From: Polaribacter huanghezhanensis
GTDB lineage: Bacteria; Bacteroidota; Bacteroidia; Flavobacteriales; Flavobacteriaceae
Assembly (NCBI RefSeq): GCF_030444335.1
Contig: NZ_CP128595.1
Coordinates: 930,001 to 994,000, forward strand
Length of the DNA: 64,000 nt
Direction of reading: 5' to 3'
Positions within the stretch are counted from its first letter, which is position 1; each line of letters starts with the position of its first letter. Positions 51,878-59,636 of the stretch are shown here, in pieces. The position numbers were made by a program, and so were the translations under genes. The notes under the pieces are model-generated. The model was not told the DNA's origin. It did no database searches and was given only the letters and a program-made list of their open reading frames with translations.

Positions 51878-52805
51878 ATGCTTTTTTATTTGGTTTTTTA
51901 CTAATTAAATACACGCCAAAAATTACCAAAAAGCAACTTGCAATTTTTACAGAATTTATATCTTGTGCGTATTCTGTTTGTCCAAAAGCATACGCATACA
52001 CACTTACCATTATAAAACTGATGGCAGGCTGTAAATACACATAGCTTCCGGTTACAGAAGGCGACACAGATTTTAAGGCGTAAATATTAAAAAGATAGGC
52101 TAAAAATGTAGTTCCGATAACTACAAATGCAATTGTTGCATAGGTTTCTACTGTAAATGCAGCAAAATTTGTTTGTAGAATATCTGGAATTCCAAACGGA
52201 AACATAAAAACAAACCCAAAAAGAAATACCCAACTAATAACGGTAATCGAATTGTACTTTTTCATTAAGGGCTTTACCAAAACCAGGTATAAACCATAAG
52301 AACACGCATTTAAAAAAATCAAAACATTACCCAATAATGAACTTGTTCCTGCAGCTTTGTTTCCGTACCAGACCAATAAGATCGCTCCAGTTGCGCCAAT
52401 TGCAATTCCAATAATTTTATTTGGGGTTATTTTTTCTTTTAAAAGAAGTGCGCTAAAAACCAATACAACAATCGGAATTGCGGTAATAATAATAGAAGCA
52501 TCAATAGGCGAAGTTAAATTGAGTCCATGAAAAAACAACAATTGATTGGTTGCAACACCCAACAATCCGCATAAAATTAAAAGCGGAAAATCTTTTTTTT
52601 CTACTTTTTCTTTGAGAAAAGATTTGATGATCCAAAATAAAATTCCTGCGCCAACAACTCGTAAAAAAATAAAAGCAGACGGCCCAATTTTATTAGGCAT
52701 GATGCCTTTAGCAATAATATAATTTACTCCGTAGATAAGATTCGCTCCTAATAAAGCCAGATGGGCTTTTGCAATGTTGTTTTTCAAAATAGTAAAAATT
52801 TGCAC
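51876..52805 (-). CDS. EamA/DMT-family permease
   Basis: 309 residues, ten predicted membrane helices, two EamA halves. It begins NNIAKAHLALLGANLIYGVNYIIAKGIMP, contains GPSAFIFLRVVGAGILFWIIKSFL, and has SPSVTGSYVYLQPAISFIMVSVYAYAFGQ in the last third. It is an inner-membrane exporter or importer of small metabolites with unknown substrate, only distantly related to the permease at 19288. It is divergent from leuS; about 100 bp lie between the two starts. Confidence 0.88.
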   Translation of the reverse strand: MQIFTILKNNIAKAHLALLGANLIYGVNYIIAKGIMPNKIGPSAFIFLRVVGAGILFWIIKSFLKEKVEKKDFPLLILCGLLGVATNQLLFFHGLNLTSPIDASIIITAIPIVVLVFSALLLKEKITPNKIIGIAIGATGAILLVWYGNKAAGTSSLLGNVLIFLNACSYGLYLVLVKPLMKKYNSITVISWVFLFGFVFMFPFGIPDILQTNFAAFTVETYATIAFVVIGTTFLAYLFNIYALKSVSPSVTGSYVYLQPAISFIMVSVYAYAFGQTEYAQDINSVKIASCFLVIFGVYLISKKPNKKA

Positions 52806-52875
52806 TACAAATAACGAACATTTTAATCGATTTTATTTCACAAGTATTTTACTTTAATCTTTTAGTAATAAGCTG

Positions 52876-52883
52876 TAACTTTG
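52876..52883 (+). promoter_or_regulatory. -7 element TAACTTTG for leuS
   Basis: TAACTTTGGC is a full TAnnTTTG match ending 25 bp before the leuS ATG. Confidence 0.6.
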
Positions 52884-52908
52884 GCGCTTCTAAAAAGCAG
52901 AAAATCAC

Positions 52909-55900
52909 ATGCAATACAATCATATTGAGATAGAAAAGAAATGGCAAGAATATTGGGATAAAAACCAAACTTTTAAAGCCAGTAATGAGTCGGAGAAACC
53001 TAAATATTATGTATTGGATATGTTTCCTTATCCAAGCGGAGCAGGTTTGCATGTTGGGCATCCGCTAGGATATATTGCAAGTGATATCTATGCACGTTAC
53101 AAACGTCATAAAGGGTTTAATGTATTACATCCACAAGGATATGATTCTTTTGGTTTGCCAGCAGAACAATATGCAATTCAGACAGGTCAACATCCTGCAA
53201 AAACGACAGAGGAAAATATTAAAACATACAGAAGACAGCTAGATAGAATCGGTTTTTCTTTTGATTGGAGCAGAGAAGTAAGAACTTCAAATCCTGAATA
53301 TTACAAATGGACACAATGGATTTTTATTCAATTGTTCAATTCCTGGTACAATAAAAGTTCAGACAAAGCAGAAGACGTTTCTACGCTGATTAAAATCTTT
53401 AAAAAAGATGGAAATGCAACTGTAAACGCAGTTTGTGATGAGGATATCAACATTTTTTCTGCGGATGAATGGAAAGCATTTACAAAAGCCGAACAAGAAG
53501 AAATCTTATTACAATATCGATTGACATTTTTGTCGGATACAGAAGTAAATTGGTGTCCAGCTTTGGGAACCGTTTTAGCAAATGATGAAATTGTAAACGG
53601 AGTTTCAGAACGTGGAGGTCATCCTGTTGTTAGAAAAAAAATGACGCAATGGTCGATGCGAATTTCTGCATACGCACAACGTTTGTTAGATGGATTAGAA
53701 ACAATTGATTGGCCACAACCTTTAAAAGATTCTCAAACCAATTGGATTGGAAAATCTGTTGGAGCATTAGTCAACTTTGAAATCCTATCCCCAGCCCTTT
53801 CCGAAGGAAAGGGAGCAAAGGCTGACTCTAAAAAAGTACCTGGTTATATGACTGGTGGGAATAATTCTTATTTATTGCTTGAAAAAGCGAAAGAAATGAG
53901 AGCAAATCCAACGCCCGCAGAAGCAATTTTATGGAAATCTTTAAAAGGGAAAAAATTAAAATCTAAATTTAGACAGCAACATTTAATTAATGATTTTATT
54001 GTTGATTTTGTGTGCTTGTCAAAGAAATTAATTATTGAAGTTGATGGTAAAATCCATGAGTATCAACTAGAAAAAGATGAAGCTAGAACTTTAGAATTAG
54101 AACAAAAATCTGGTTTTAAAGTGATCAGATTTAAAAATGAAGAAGTAATTGGTGATATTGATGCAGTTTTATCTAAAATAGATTCAGAATTAAGTAATCA
54201 AGCATTTCTGCTTTCAAAACTTGAGCAAGATAATTCGAAAGAAACGGAATCAACTTCTCTTTCCTCTGGAAAGGGACAGAGGGATAGGATTAGTGTTTTT
54301 ACAACACGTCCTGATACTATTTTCGGTGTTTCATTTATGACATTAGCTCCAGAACACGAGTTGGTGTCACGAATCGTGACAGATGAACAAAAAGAAGAAG
54401 TAAATGCTTACATTAAAGCCACAGCAAAACGGTCTGAACGCGATAGAATGGCAGATGTAAAAAGCATTTCTGGTGCGTTTACTGGCGCGTATGCTTTGCA
54501 TCCGTTTACGGGAAAACAAATTCCGATTTGGATTGGAGATTACGTCTTAGCAAACTACGGAACAGGAGCAGTTATGGCGGTTCCTTGTGGAGATCAACGT
54601 GATTATGATTTTGCAAAACATTTTAATATTGCCATTCCGAATATTTTTGAAAACGTAGCTGTTTCTGAAGGGGCGCATACAGATAAAGACGGAACAAAAA
54701 TTGCAAATTCTGATTTTTTAAATGGTTTATCGTACAAAAAAGCGATGAAATTAGCCATTTACGAACTAGAAAAACAAGGTTTTGGAGAAGGAAAAATAAA
54801 TTACCGTTTGCGTGATGCTGTGTTTAGCAGACAACGGTATTGGGGAGAACCTTTTCCAGTATATTATAAAGACGGAATGCCGCAAATGATTGATACAAAA
54901 CACTTGCCAATTGTTTTGCCAGAAGTAGAAAAATACTTGCCAACTGAAGACGGAAAACCGCCTTTAGGAAACGCAACTGAATGGGCTTGGGATTCTCGTG
55001 CTAAGAAAGTTGTAAGCAATGATAAGTTAAAAAATAAAACGGTGTATCCGTTAGAATTAAACACCATGCCGGGTTGGGCAGGAAGTTCTTGGTACTTTAA
55101 CCGGTATATGGATTCGCAAAATTCTGAGGAATTTGCAAGCAAAGAATCGTTGGAGTATTGGAAAGAAGTTGATTTATATATTGGTGGTTCTGAACACGCA
55201 ACCGGACATTTATTGTACGCGCGTTTTTGGCAAAAATTCTTGTTTGATAAAGGAATTGTTCCGGTAGATGAATTTGCAAAAAAACTAATCAACCAAGGAA
55301 TGATTTTGGGAACTTCTGCTTTTGCATATAGAATAGATGGGAGGCCAAATGTTTTTGTTTCTAAAGATGTTTATGATATTCTAACGGAACCAATTCCTAA
55401 ATCATCTAAAGGTAAAGGAGAAAAAATTATTAGAGATTTTTTAGGTTTAAAAGATGAAATATTTGGAATAGATAGAGGAATTCATGTAGATGTTTCTTTT
55501 GTTGATTCATCTGATGAATTAGATATAAAACGATTTAAAGAGTGGAGGCCAGAGTTTAAAAACGCAGAATTTATTACAAAAGAAAAAGGTGTTTTTAAAG
55601 TAAGAAGAGAGGTCGAAAAAATGTCAAAATCAAAATACAATGTTGTAAATCCTGATGCAATTTGTGAAGAATACGGAGCAGACAGTTTACGTTTGTTCGA
55701 AATGTTTTTAGGCCCTTTAGAACAAGCAAAACCTTGGAAAACTTCTGGTATTTCTGGAGTTTCATCGTTCTTAAAGAAATTATGGAGGTTGTATTTTAAC
55801 GGAGAAACATTTGAAGTTTCTGACGCAGCACCAACAAAAGACGAATTAAAAGTTTTACATAAAACCATTAAAAAAGTAGAAGAAGATATTGAGAATTTCT

Positions 55901-56298
55901 CTTTCAACACATCAGTTTCTACATTTATGATTGCAGTAAACGAGTTAACAGCATTAAAATGTAACAAGCGTGCAATTTTAGAACCATTGGCAATTTTAGT
56001 GTCGCCTTATGCGCCACATATTGCAGAAGAATTGTGGAGTTTATTAGGAAATAAAGAAAGTATTTCTACGGCAGAATTTCCTGTTTTTGATGAAAAACAT
56101 TTGGTAGAAAGTGCTAAAACATATCCGGTTTCATTCAATGGAAAAATGCGTTTTACTTTAGAGCTTTCTTTAGATTTATCAAAAGAAGAAATTGAAAAAA
56201 TAGTAATGGCACACGAAAAAACAATCGCACAACTCGCAGGGCGAGAGCCAAAAAAGGTAATTATTGTTCCAGGTAAAATTATAAATATTGTTGGCTAG
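52909..56298 (+). CDS. leuS: Leucyl-tRNA synthetase carrying an in-frame DUF559 nuclease insertion
   Basis: 1129 residues, far above the roughly 930-960 expected. Catalytic parts are intact: [22 protein letters not shown] (HIGH motif), [18 protein letters not shown], the CP1 editing domain with [23 protein letters not shown] and [38 protein letters not shown], and [17 protein letters not shown] (KMSKS). Between VGALVNFEI and [10 protein letters not shown], at the entry to CP1, about 168 residues (293-460) are foreign: a DUF559 domain flanked by peptides translated from inverted repeats. No stop or frameshift interrupts the gene, so a larger LeuRS is probably made. A second segment (about 808-845, before [16 protein letters not shown]) also looks longer than I expect for the family. 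Confidence 0.95.
   Translation: [1129 protein letters not shown]
53781..53813 (+). repeat. Left hairpin-arm repeat of the DUF559 element
   Basis: Arm AATCCTATCC followed by the perfect stem CCCTTTCC/GGAAAGGG with a 3-nt loop. In the LeuRS frame it encodes [10 protein letters not shown]. Confidence 0.8.
54259..54291 (-). repeat. Right hairpin-arm repeat of the DUF559 element
   Basis: Stem CTTTCC/GGAAAG with loop TCT, then GG, ACAGA and the arm GGGATAGGATT. Reversed, it starts AATCCTATCCC like the left end. In frame it encodes [11 protein letters not shown]. Confidence 0.8.
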
Positions 56299-56344
56299 CA
56301 CACGCAGTGTGCTTTTGGTATTTTACTTGTTTGTGGTTAAATAG

Positions 56345-56412
56345 TTGTCATTCCTGCGCAGGCAGAAATCCAAATTAACGTATTATAGATTCCTGTTTTA
56401 CAGGAATGACAA
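56345..56412. repeat. Paired palindromic repeat, GTCATTCCTG family
   Basis: The left half TTGTCATTCCTGCGCAGGCA (then GAAATCC) and the inverted right half, ending CAGGAATGACAA, are about 20 bp apart. Each half can fold on itself (ATTCCTG with CAGGAAT). It lies behind leuS. A second pair of the same family is at 58762-58874. Confidence 0.7.
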
Positions 56413-56419
56413 ATCTAAT

Positions 56420-56452
56420 TAAAGGCATTATACAATTTGTAACGCCTTTTTA
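56420..56452 (+). terminator. Probable terminator after leuS
   Basis: AAAGGCATTA and TAACGCCTTTTT form a stem with one mismatch around a loop of about 8 nt, followed by T residues. Confidence 0.6.
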
Positions 56453-56496
56453 TTTATCTATTTTGTACCTTTAAATCGTCTTATAAAAAAGCATTG

Positions 56497-57954
56497 ATGT
56501 TTAAAAACTTATCATTACGGATTCGTATTTTCTTAGCCATGATTTTATTGGTGTTGTTGGCATCCGTTTTAATTTTAGGCGTTACCATTTATCAATATGA
56601 CAAGCAAACGGAAGATTACAATATTGCGCGTTTTGAAAGAAAAGAAGAATCGGTTTTATCGAGTATAGAATTCGAGCTTAAAAGAGAAACAAGAGAGCCG
56701 CTTACCACAGAAAATTTAGCTAGAATATTTCAAAAAAGAATCTACGAAATTTCGAGCACGCATAAATTAAACATTTCTATTTTTGATTTAGAAGGAAATC
56801 TATTAATTACATCAAACACCATTAATTCTTTTGATATTACAAAAGAAGAACAAGCGTTATCAGGTCAAATTTTAGAAGATTTAGAATCGTTACCGTCTCA
56901 GAGAGTTTTTAGCAATGTGGTTATCAACAGTATCAGTAACGAAACTTCTTACACGTATATTACTGATTTAAAATTCAGACGAATTGGCGTCTTAGAATTA
57001 AAGTTTTCTCAAGACAATTCTGAAGAAGAAAAAGAGTTAAGAGAATTTATGATTCGGTTGGCATACGTGTATTTATTTATGTTGATAATAGCTGTTTCTT
57101 TGGCTTATTTTATATCGAGTTATATTACAAGATCTATCAAAACTATTTCTGATAAAATCCACGAAACACGGTTGAATAAACGCAACGAAAAAATTGAATT
57201 TAATTCTGGAAGCACAGAAATTAGCACTTTGGTAAATGCGTATAACCGAATGATTGATGAATTGCAAGAAAGTGCTGTAAAATTAGCACAAAGCGAACGA
57301 GAACAAGCATGGAGAGAAATGGCAAAACAAGTAGCGCACGAAATTAAAAACCCGTTAACTCCAATGCGATTATCGGTACAAAGTTTTGAGCGAAAATTTG
57401 ATCCAACAGACCCAAATATTAAAGAAAAATTAAAAGAATTTAGCCAAACCTTAATTCAGCAAATCGATGTAATGACTTCTATTGCATCGGCCTTTTCTGA
57501 TTTTGCTAAAATGCCAACTCAAAAAAGAGAAAAGATAGATGTAATTTCGGTTGTAAAACTAGCTTTAGACATTTTTAATGAAGAGTATATTTCGTATTCT
57601 TTCACAGAAAATTCTTTGATAGCAAATCTTGATAAATCGCAGTTAATTAGAGTGGTTACCAACTTAATTACAAATGCCACTCAAGCAGTTAATCAAACAG
57701 AAAACCCAAAAATTGAGGTTCATGTTTCATCAGAAAAAGACAACATTAAAATTGCTGTAACCGATAACGGAAAAGGAATAGATGAATCGGTAAAAGATTT
57801 GATATTTGAACCTAAATTTACAACCAAATCAAGCGGAATGGGATTGGGTTTAGCAATTATAAAAAAGATTATTGAAGCAAATAACGGAACTATAAATTTT
57901 GTTTCTTTTAAAGGAAAAGGAACAACATTTACCGTAACATTTCCAAAAAATTAA
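56497..57954 (+). CDS. Orphan sensor histidine kinase (NtrY-like)
   Basis: 485 residues from ATG 56497; the TTG one codon earlier is less likely. Two membrane helices (about 9-29 and 185-208) bracket a periplasmic sensor domain of about 155 residues. A HAMP-like linker (RSIKTISDKIHETRL) is followed by a HisKA box WREMAKQVAHEIKNPLTPMRLSVQSF, whose HEIKNPLTP form is typical of the NtrY/NtrB group. The ATPase domain has NLITNATQAV, DNGKGID and SSGMGLGLAIIKKI. No response regulator gene is adjacent; an enoyl-CoA hydratase gene follows after 4 bp. The signal is unknown. Confidence 0.9.
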   Translation: MFKNLSLRIRIFLAMILLVLLASVLILGVTIYQYDKQTEDYNIARFERKEESVLSSIEFELKRETREPLTTENLARIFQKRIYEISSTHKLNISIFDLEGNLLITSNTINSFDITKEEQALSGQILEDLESLPSQRVFSNVVINSISNETSYTYITDLKFRRIGVLELKFSQDNSEEEKELREFMIRLAYVYLFMLIIAVSLAYFISSYITRSIKTISDKIHETRLNKRNEKIEFNSGSTEISTLVNAYNRMIDELQESAVKLAQSEREQAWREMAKQVAHEIKNPLTPMRLSVQSFERKFDPTDPNIKEKLKEFSQTLIQQIDVMTSIASAFSDFAKMPTQKREKIDVISVVKLALDIFNEEYISYSFTENSLIANLDKSQLIRVVTNLITNATQAVNQTENPKIEVHVSSEKDNIKIAVTDNGKGIDESVKDLIFEPKFTTKSSGMGLGLAIIKKIIEANNGTINFVSFKGKGTTFTVTFPKN

Positions 57955-59603: not shown

Positions 59604-59636
59604 TCCTTTCCTTTGGAAAGGATTTAGGATAGGAGT
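59604..59636. repeat. Solitary hairpin-arm repeat related to the DUF559 element ends
   Basis: Stem TCCTTTCC-TTT-GGAAAGGA, then TTTA, then GGATAGGAGT: the same hairpin-plus-arm design as the right end of the element in leuS, without any nuclease gene. It directly abuts the stop codon of the bacilliredoxin gene. Confidence 0.7.

Follow-up and report, generated by a model that had tools for sequence, protein, structure and literature searches.

The window, a stretch of 64,000 nucleotides from the Polaribacter huanghezhanensis genome (contig NZ_CP128595.1, positions 930,001 to 994,000 of the forward strand), contains a leuS gene for leucyl-tRNA synthetase (LeuRS) that carries, within its own reading frame, a 505-bp element with an intact DUF559 domain inside. 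The gene is one uninterrupted frame of 1129 codons, without a stop, that runs through the insert, which lies between the LeuRS stretches VGALVNFEI and ISVFTTRPDT. A preliminary description of this DNA had stated that the insert is in frame, free of stop codons, and flanked on both sides by preserved LeuRS, that it holds an apparently intact DUF559 domain, and that it is bounded by inverted repeats which are themselves translated (SEGKG at one end, SSGKG at the other). All of these statements hold. The whole product is assigned by NCBIfam to leuS_bact (885.9 bits vs. a cut-off of 548.4), Pfam recognizes DUF559 (PF04480; 105.0 bits vs. a gathering score of 20.6, E 2.4e-30) flanked by catalytic-domain matches and the editing domain PF13603 (residues 456–617), and the repeats can be read directly at both ends. 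The genome (2.59 Mb) contains one DUF559 match, sited in its one leuS match. An assembly error or a pseudogene could in principle produce such a gene; we give this account a negligible probability, because the genome is a single contig rated 100% complete with one leuS match, and because the same arrangement is found in other Polaribacter records and in many other genera.

Table 1. Features of leuS and of its insert (window positions), with one bare hairpin further downstream.
Feature	Position	Strand	Basis
leuS, leucyl-tRNA synthetase with insert, 1129 aa	52909..56298	+	single leuS match of the genome
In-frame insert, LeuRS residues 293–460	53785..54288	+	compared with empty LeuRS of genus and family
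Left outer inverted repeat CCTATCCC	53784..53791	+	direct reading of sequence
Left hairpin CCCTTTCC-GAA-GGAAAGGG, translated within SEGKG	53795..53813	+	sequence; fold z −2.3
DUF559 domain (predicted nuclease), residues 325–428	53881..54192	+	Pfam; model mean pLDDT 83.7
Predicted active-site stretch: D366, E377, D379, H383; E338 upstream	54004..54057	+	insert alignment
Right hairpin CTCTTTCC-TCT-GGAAAGGG, one mismatch, translated within SSGKG	54257..54275	+	fold z −0.9
Right outer inverted repeat GGGATAGG	54281..54288	+	direct reading of sequence
Bare hairpin TCCTTTCC-TTT-GGAAAGGA then TTTAGGATAGGA, without DUF559 gene	59604..59622	.	

Relatives with an empty site keep six residues in place of the insert (e.g., DGHDAK), at the expected hairpin turn. 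Therefore, the net gain is 162 residues, not the 168 counted in the preliminary description. By insert sequence, the closest relatives are Polaribacter records, with 98% identity. The structure model of the whole LeuRS is poor (mean pLDDT 60.7, 21 sequences); in it, the insert folds between low-confidence linkers.

Distribution of the insert among leuS genes

Among 149 genomes of the family, 147 leuS matches were found, 13 of them in frames of at least 1090 amino acids. All 13 long frames were examined, and 12 contained the domain, intact in ten cases and degenerate in two. Forty-one of the 134 shorter leuS genes were examined as well; 40 were readable at the site, and none of these 40 contained the domain (the frame of the remaining one, L091, is broken). 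Frame length is mostly, but not always, a valid proxy for the insert, as shown by genome G080, whose leuS frame has a length of 1181 without it.

In the genus Polaribacter, a leuS match was present in 74 of the 78 genomes. Classified by E-value, these genes comprised seven with an intact insert, 37 with a degenerate insert, and 30 without a DUF559 match, the last class possibly including frames cut by contig ends. The intact and degenerate classes are separated by a clear gap (3e-43 or lower vs. 2e-23 and weaker). When 30 of the 74 genes were read in sequence, three intact, 21 degenerate, and six empty sites were recorded. The hairpin was retained in nine of nine intact inserts vs. none of 21 degenerate ones (genus set together with six named Polaribacter loci), and the aspartate of the E-x-D-G motif was replaced in the degenerate inserts by serine in 20 cases and by valine in one. 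A domain shared by most Flavobacteriaceae LeuRS through vertical descent, which the preliminary description had named as the pattern that would speak against a mobile element, was not found: the insert occurs in a minority, and insert and host trees reject each other (see below). Its sporadic distribution at one leuS site, with empty and decayed alleles, is that expected of a homing element.

Several side observations concern leuS itself. Directly 3′ of the gene (window positions 56347–56371) lies GTCATTCCTGCGCAGGCAGAAATCC, which we take to resemble a dispersed repeat of another kind. The same CP1 loop of LeuRS holds, in L058, L079, L086, L089, and L247, other sequences translated in frame (e.g., VIPSEAKESAKSENDGHAELVEAPQ, RHSELDSESH, NVISSGVEKSFK), presumably members of other repeat families, and may be a general hot spot for repeats. 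The stretch from GTSAF to VEKMSKS (window positions 55309–55611, before KMSKS), compared across loci L032–L090, varies strongly in length and sequence between genera, possibly reflecting diversifying selection on an essential enzyme; among the matches listed, total length in proteins named Cellulophaga baltica ranges from 1073 to 1149 amino acids. Finally, the match in L091 (leuS of G061, a one-contig genome) lies in a 250-amino-acid frame with a TGA inside the match, for which a sequencing error, recoding, or a second gene are possible explanations.

The predicted nuclease domain

The putative active-site residues E338, D366, E377, D379, and H383 are invariant in all 28 aligned inserts. When a profile of these inserts was compared with the PDB, only two chains matched at E < 0.001: 3hrl, an endonuclease-like protein whose role is uncharacterized (E 4.5e-30), and 3r3p, described as “Mobile intron protein” and titled “Homing Endonuclease I-Bth0305I Catalytic Domain” (E 9.8e-8). 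The structure model of the insert gave the same ranking, with 3hrl as the best match, 3r3p as the second (E 1.1e-4, TM 0.79 by target), and Vsr weaker. In the alignment to 3hrl, D366, E377, D379, and H383 are all common to both proteins. The median ratio of nonsynonymous to synonymous substitution rates (dN/dS) in the seven intact Polaribacter inserts is 0.21, vs. 0.13 in the LeuRS flanks, indicating purifying selection; L190 and L193 were left out of this analysis and of the genus topology test as near-duplicates.

The relation to a nuclease known from a mobile intron raises the question of whether the insert is an intein or a self-splicing intron that carries a homing nuclease and is excised prior to protein maturation. 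We consider this very improbable, since no splicing (Hint) domain is seen in LeuRS by Pfam or NCBIfam, an Rfam scan over window positions 52500–56500 gave no intron (the best of four matches had E 4.4, and all were far below gathering scores), and the insert consists of the nuclease domain and short linkers with the frame open throughout.

Other identities were considered and set aside. An internal start that would yield a free nuclease was rejected, as the candidate methionine in “GYMTGG” is not conserved. A role in a defence system was dropped because PADLOC gave no match, and a phage origin because only three phage records match, all at less than 60% identity, along with two weak PHROG matches of unknown function.

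Hairpin repeats at DUF559 genes and elsewhere

When folded as single-stranded DNA, the left hairpin of the insert is better than shuffled sequences, and the right one is not clearly so (z −2.3 and −0.9, respectively). The exact pattern CCTTTCC-nnn-GGAAAGG occurs at five places in the P. huanghezhanensis genome, including the left end of the insert, vs. none for the reversed control pattern, and is therefore not a product of chance. Two bare copies of the hairpin in this genome sit just before likely gene start codons.

Hairpins around other DUF559 genes were scored as perfect pyrimidine-rich stems of at least seven. Within 150 bp of solitary and in-gene DUF559 their density is 3.7 per kb; beyond 600 bp it is 0–0.21 per kb. 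A hairpin was found within 250 bp on both sides of 35 of 68 solitary and 20 of 53 in-gene copies, and of none of the 281 control anchors in the same loci; for at least one side, the corresponding figures are 57 of 68, 39 of 53, and 21 of 281. The anchor count covers 121 of 123 copies (the degenerate L032 and L033 were left out), and the window's own copy is included neither in the hairpin counts nor in the 123-copy tree discussed below. A clean control, 42 leuS loci without DUF559, yielded seven hairpins in 186.7 kb (0.04 per kb), while another control of 54 loci (0.10 per kb) contains several loci that were chosen for hairpins or that bear those of the window itself. The association of such repeats with other DUF559 genes, on which the preliminary description had made its reading depend, is thus observed at solitary and in-gene copies alike.

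Exact-stem counts in 17 genomes show that the stems differ by lineage. The CCTTTCC stem is present 13 times in G181, five times in P. huanghezhanensis, one to three times in five other genomes, and not at all in ten. The CTTCCCC stem is confined to the seven genomes with a leuS element ending in it, once in each and twice in G125, and the CCCCTCC stem is present in all four genomes that have the corresponding element (one to seven copies) as well as in three others. The reversed control pattern gave no hits in any of the 17 genomes.

Host genes other than leuS

The same layout, a DUF559 domain between translated hairpin-type repeats and in frame with the host, is found in other genes across Bacteroidota. 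In all, 123 different DUF559 copies were analyzed, 55 of them in frames of at least 225 amino acids, and 39 further loci were read; the loci were drawn mainly from the best-scoring among the matches listed. Hosts identified by hidden Markov models above curated cut-offs are MetH, RecG, IleRS, HsdR, and HisD (in the latter, the element is at the C-terminus). A PurL/PurQ-type protein (L177, C-terminus) and HsdM fall below the cut-off, and one further protein, P0031, is a PurL with internal DUF559 copies according to its Pfam listing. Of the 72 insert matches in Polaribacter, 69 belong to frames of at least 598 amino acids and three to frames shorter than 200.

Some proteins contain more than one element. 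The best 120 of 1472 proteins found all contain DUF559, and nine of the 120 hold two or three copies at different in-frame places: four LeuRS, two IleRS, two MetH (one with three copies), and one PurL. Identity between copies within these nine proteins ranges from 45 to 86%, the closest pairs being those in PurL (86% over 151 amino acids), IleRS (70%), and MetH (69%). A pair of copies within one MetH of G215 groups as sisters (support 92). The second LeuRS site and MetH site B each exist in three forms among relatives: empty, with a bare hairpin of matching style, or with the complete element. This range of states suggests that bare hairpins may be landing pads or leftovers.

Further hosts were noted in passing. 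In L006, L016, L018, L024, and L097–L101, DUF559 is fused in frame to the N-terminus of a protein that we take to be HemD-like from its motifs (an NCBIfam scan gave only DUF559); several of these nine fusions have translated hairpin-type repeats, and together with one apparently solitary copy, L131, they form one group on the tree. Four HsdR-type restriction proteins from three families (L170, L174, L183, and L168; L170 is HsdR by hidden Markov model) carry the element, in three cases just before the GVIWHTQGSGKS motif, so that a predicted nuclease element lies inside a restriction enzyme. The hosts in L212, L214, L216, L217, and L219 are presumably UvrD/AddA-like, judging by their motifs. L216, from a record titled as a Rhizobium metagenome-assembled genome, has the same helicase-like host and insert as Flavobacterium records, and its contig is likely mis-binned.

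Phylogeny of inserts and hosts

Topology tests on 17 intact leuS inserts, one per genome, showed conflict in both directions: the LeuRS topology was rejected by the insert data (delta lnL 172.4, p-AU 4.3e-4) and the insert topology by the LeuRS data (delta lnL 393.4, p-AU 3.3e-5). Vertical passage also plays some part, as a four-genus cluster is common to the two trees. Within the genus, the three site states interleave on the LeuRS tree (38 rows) with seven changes, many forks being weak; the degenerate inserts are monophyletic in the insert phylogeny, unlike their hosts (p-AU 4.4e-4), and insert and host topologies are mutually rejected (28 rows). Homing would produce conflicts of this kind, as would leuS alleles exchanged by other means.

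In the 123-copy tree, clades follow the host gene: all nine metH copies group together (support 96), as do all eight recG (81) and all four hsdR copies (99). The claim that leuS inserts form at least two clades was dropped, since strongly supported branches force only one change.

These data bear on an alternative in which the element is a transposition unit of the repetitive extragenic palindrome (REP) type, in which DUF559 would work on its hairpin ends in the way that RAYT transposases work on REPs and would move both the element and bare hairpins, in-frame copies being only the survivors of landings in genes. Such a unit would account for hairpins that flank solitary and in-gene DUF559 alike, for bare hairpins of the same kind elsewhere in a genome that itself has no Y1 transposase match, and for copies at new sites within one protein. 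However, the host-gene-specific clades and the use of one leuS site across many genera indicate a preference for certain sites, bare copies are scarce (0–13 exact copies per stem for three stems in 17 genomes), and, among solved relatives whose role is named, the nearest is a homing endonuclease. We therefore consider a REP-type unit unlikely, while keeping it as the most serious competitor. Repeats driven by a RAYT itself were ruled out, because the P. huanghezhanensis genome has no match to the Y1 (HUH) transposase family PF01797; eight of the 31 genomes tested had none.

Discussion

The best explanation of the data, and one that we hold to be probable, is that the DUF559 insert belongs to a hairpin-ended, recurrent family of Bacteroidota elements that spread selfishly in a homing-type manner, and that it is predicted to stay unspliced in the host protein, tolerated there as an insert with REP-like ends. 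According to this proposal, the DUF559 domain, produced as a segment of LeuRS, would cut or nick any allele lacking the insert, and repair from the filled allele would copy the insert into the empty one. Hairpin repeats already present in genes would serve as occasional landing pads, letting a copy reach a new site; such copying to new sites, perhaps via hairpins, is needed in addition because two or three copies occur in one protein. In an essential gene, only copies that land in a surface loop with the frame kept would survive, the readable ends and open frame keeping the host protein working. After fixation, the nuclease would decay but the frame would stay open, producing degenerate inserts. 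The mobile-element reading of the preliminary description is thereby supported and is extended by a homing mechanism, with cleavage, movement, and retention in the mature protein being steps that we infer.

A number of observations weigh against this proposal. No movement event was caught among the loci compared: there is no clean pair of empty and filled sites with a target-site duplication, and at the leuS insert the alignment of relatives, which did supply the empty sites sought by the preliminary description, revealed no readable duplication at the borders, six codons being replaced instead. The link to I-Bth0305I is incomplete. Of D366, E377, D379, and H383, E377 alone is common in the alignment to 3r3p. 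The two domains are clearly related in fold, but their catalytic motifs differ; the insert was accordingly not filed as a member of the EDxHD homing endonuclease family, to which it is related by sequence and fold and from which it departs in catalytic residues (one of four in agreement). Genomes with CTTCCCC-type ends have the hairpin almost nowhere but at the element, so bare repeats are not always present. Part of the tree conflict could stem from whole leuS alleles being exchanged. Recent transfer among intact Polaribacter copies is not indicated, because the median synonymous divergence (dS) of the insert (0.70) is close to that of the LeuRS flanks (0.74); L190 alone of nine relatives has an insert core clearly more similar (92.9%) than the adjoining LeuRS (88.1 and 82.8%), with L192 showing this slightly. 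The leuS label changes three times on the best 123-copy tree. Only one change is enforced by strongly supported branches, which leaves the data compatible with leuS inserts of a single origin. On the same tree, 37 leuS, metH, recG, ileS, and hisD copies lie on one side and the solitary, hemD-like, and hsdR copies lie apart (support 89, from few columns); this separation of in-gene from solitary copies suggests that intergenic elements seldom move into genes. Finally, degenerate inserts are still constrained (dN/dS 0.24), which would fit an acquired structural role.

Part of this evidence is also what one or a few ancient insertions would leave behind if they were inherited vertically with many losses and kept as a useful LeuRS domain, for example, for DNA or RNA binding. 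Purifying selection on intact and degenerate inserts, the near-equality of insert and flank dS, the four-genus cluster shared by host and insert trees, and the compatibility with a single leuS origin are all consistent with such a history. Yet host and insert trees conflict in both family and genus, the same kind of element is found in a range of unrelated proteins, with two or three copies in some, and it is absent from close relatives, making ancient insertion, in our view, a distinctly improbable account of the whole.

Going one step further, we tentatively suggest, with somewhat less than even confidence, that the element represents a new class of mobile elements, a protein-resident homing transposon. 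It would be a nuclease with readable hairpin ends and no intron or intein, reside permanently in essential proteins as an additional domain, home to empty alleles, use REP-like hairpins already in genes as landing pads for new in-frame sites, be present in up to three copies per protein, and leave inert domains behind. Selfish nuclease genes that reside in essential genes are usually made harmless by splicing, as introns or inteins. If our proposal is true, there is another route to harmlessness, which is to be short, readable from end to end, and to land in loops. DUF559, a domain of unknown function, would then gain a concrete role tied to neighbouring hairpin repeats, in-frame insertions in LeuRS, IleRS, MetH, RecG, and PurL would be explained, and the degenerate copies in one genus would document the passage from a selfish nuclease to an ordinary protein insertion. 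A protein-resident homing transposon would be a steady source of protein insertions in Bacteroidota.

Comparison with known systems

The preliminary description knew of no formal account of such a system. This holds for an in-frame element with its own nuclease in the host frame, for which the open-licence literature yielded no account; in-frame palindromes and non-splicing homing inserts, on the other hand, provide partial precedents. The DUF559 literature, as represented by titles and the beginnings of abstracts, contained nothing on in-frame inserts and no item joining DUF559 with leucyl-tRNA synthetase.

Caulobacter VsrA, a solitary DUF559/Vsr-like protein, has the same Pfam domain and is needed for the DNA-damage response in cells without a methyltransferase (PMC12907096). 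It is encoded by a stand-alone gene with a proposed repair role and is not an in-frame insert (PMC12907096). The REPtron, consisting of a RAYT gene and REPs, resembles our element in that a small gene lies between hairpin repeats also found elsewhere in the genome (PMC3733652). RAYTs, however, are HUH tyrosine transposases (PMC3733652). The P. huanghezhanensis genome has no match to these, and the GTAG tag is absent, by eye, beside the window's two hairpins. I-Bth0305I is an EDxHD homing endonuclease, a mobile-intron protein with long DNA-binding extensions (PDB 3r3p; PMC3943268), whose catalytic domain is related to the insert by sequence and fold; in our case there is no intron, no further domain match, and, of the four residues checked, only E377 is shared.

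The closest precedents come from Rickettsia and from phages. Rickettsia palindromic elements (RPE) measure ~150 bp, sit in frame within unrelated protein genes, and are described as coding for nothing beyond a conserved peptide (PMC10969869). Like the present element, they are selfish palindromic inserts translated with the host; unlike them, the present element is 505 bp long, carries a predicted nuclease, and has its host range in Bacteroidota. The ShiLan insert in a phage DNA methylase is of the homing type and lacks a splicing domain, and its authors predict that it is retained in the protein (PMC11855218). It shares with the leuS insert this homing-type character, the absence of a splicing domain, and a frame that stays open together with that of the host gene. 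The ShiLan nuclease, an HNH enzyme, is encoded in another frame (PMC11855218), whereas a Vsr-like domain lies in the LeuRS frame here; our element also has hairpin ends, occupies numerous bacterial host genes, and is sometimes found more than once in a protein. Set beside these systems, there is a reasonable chance that an in-frame element with its own nuclease merits a separate class.

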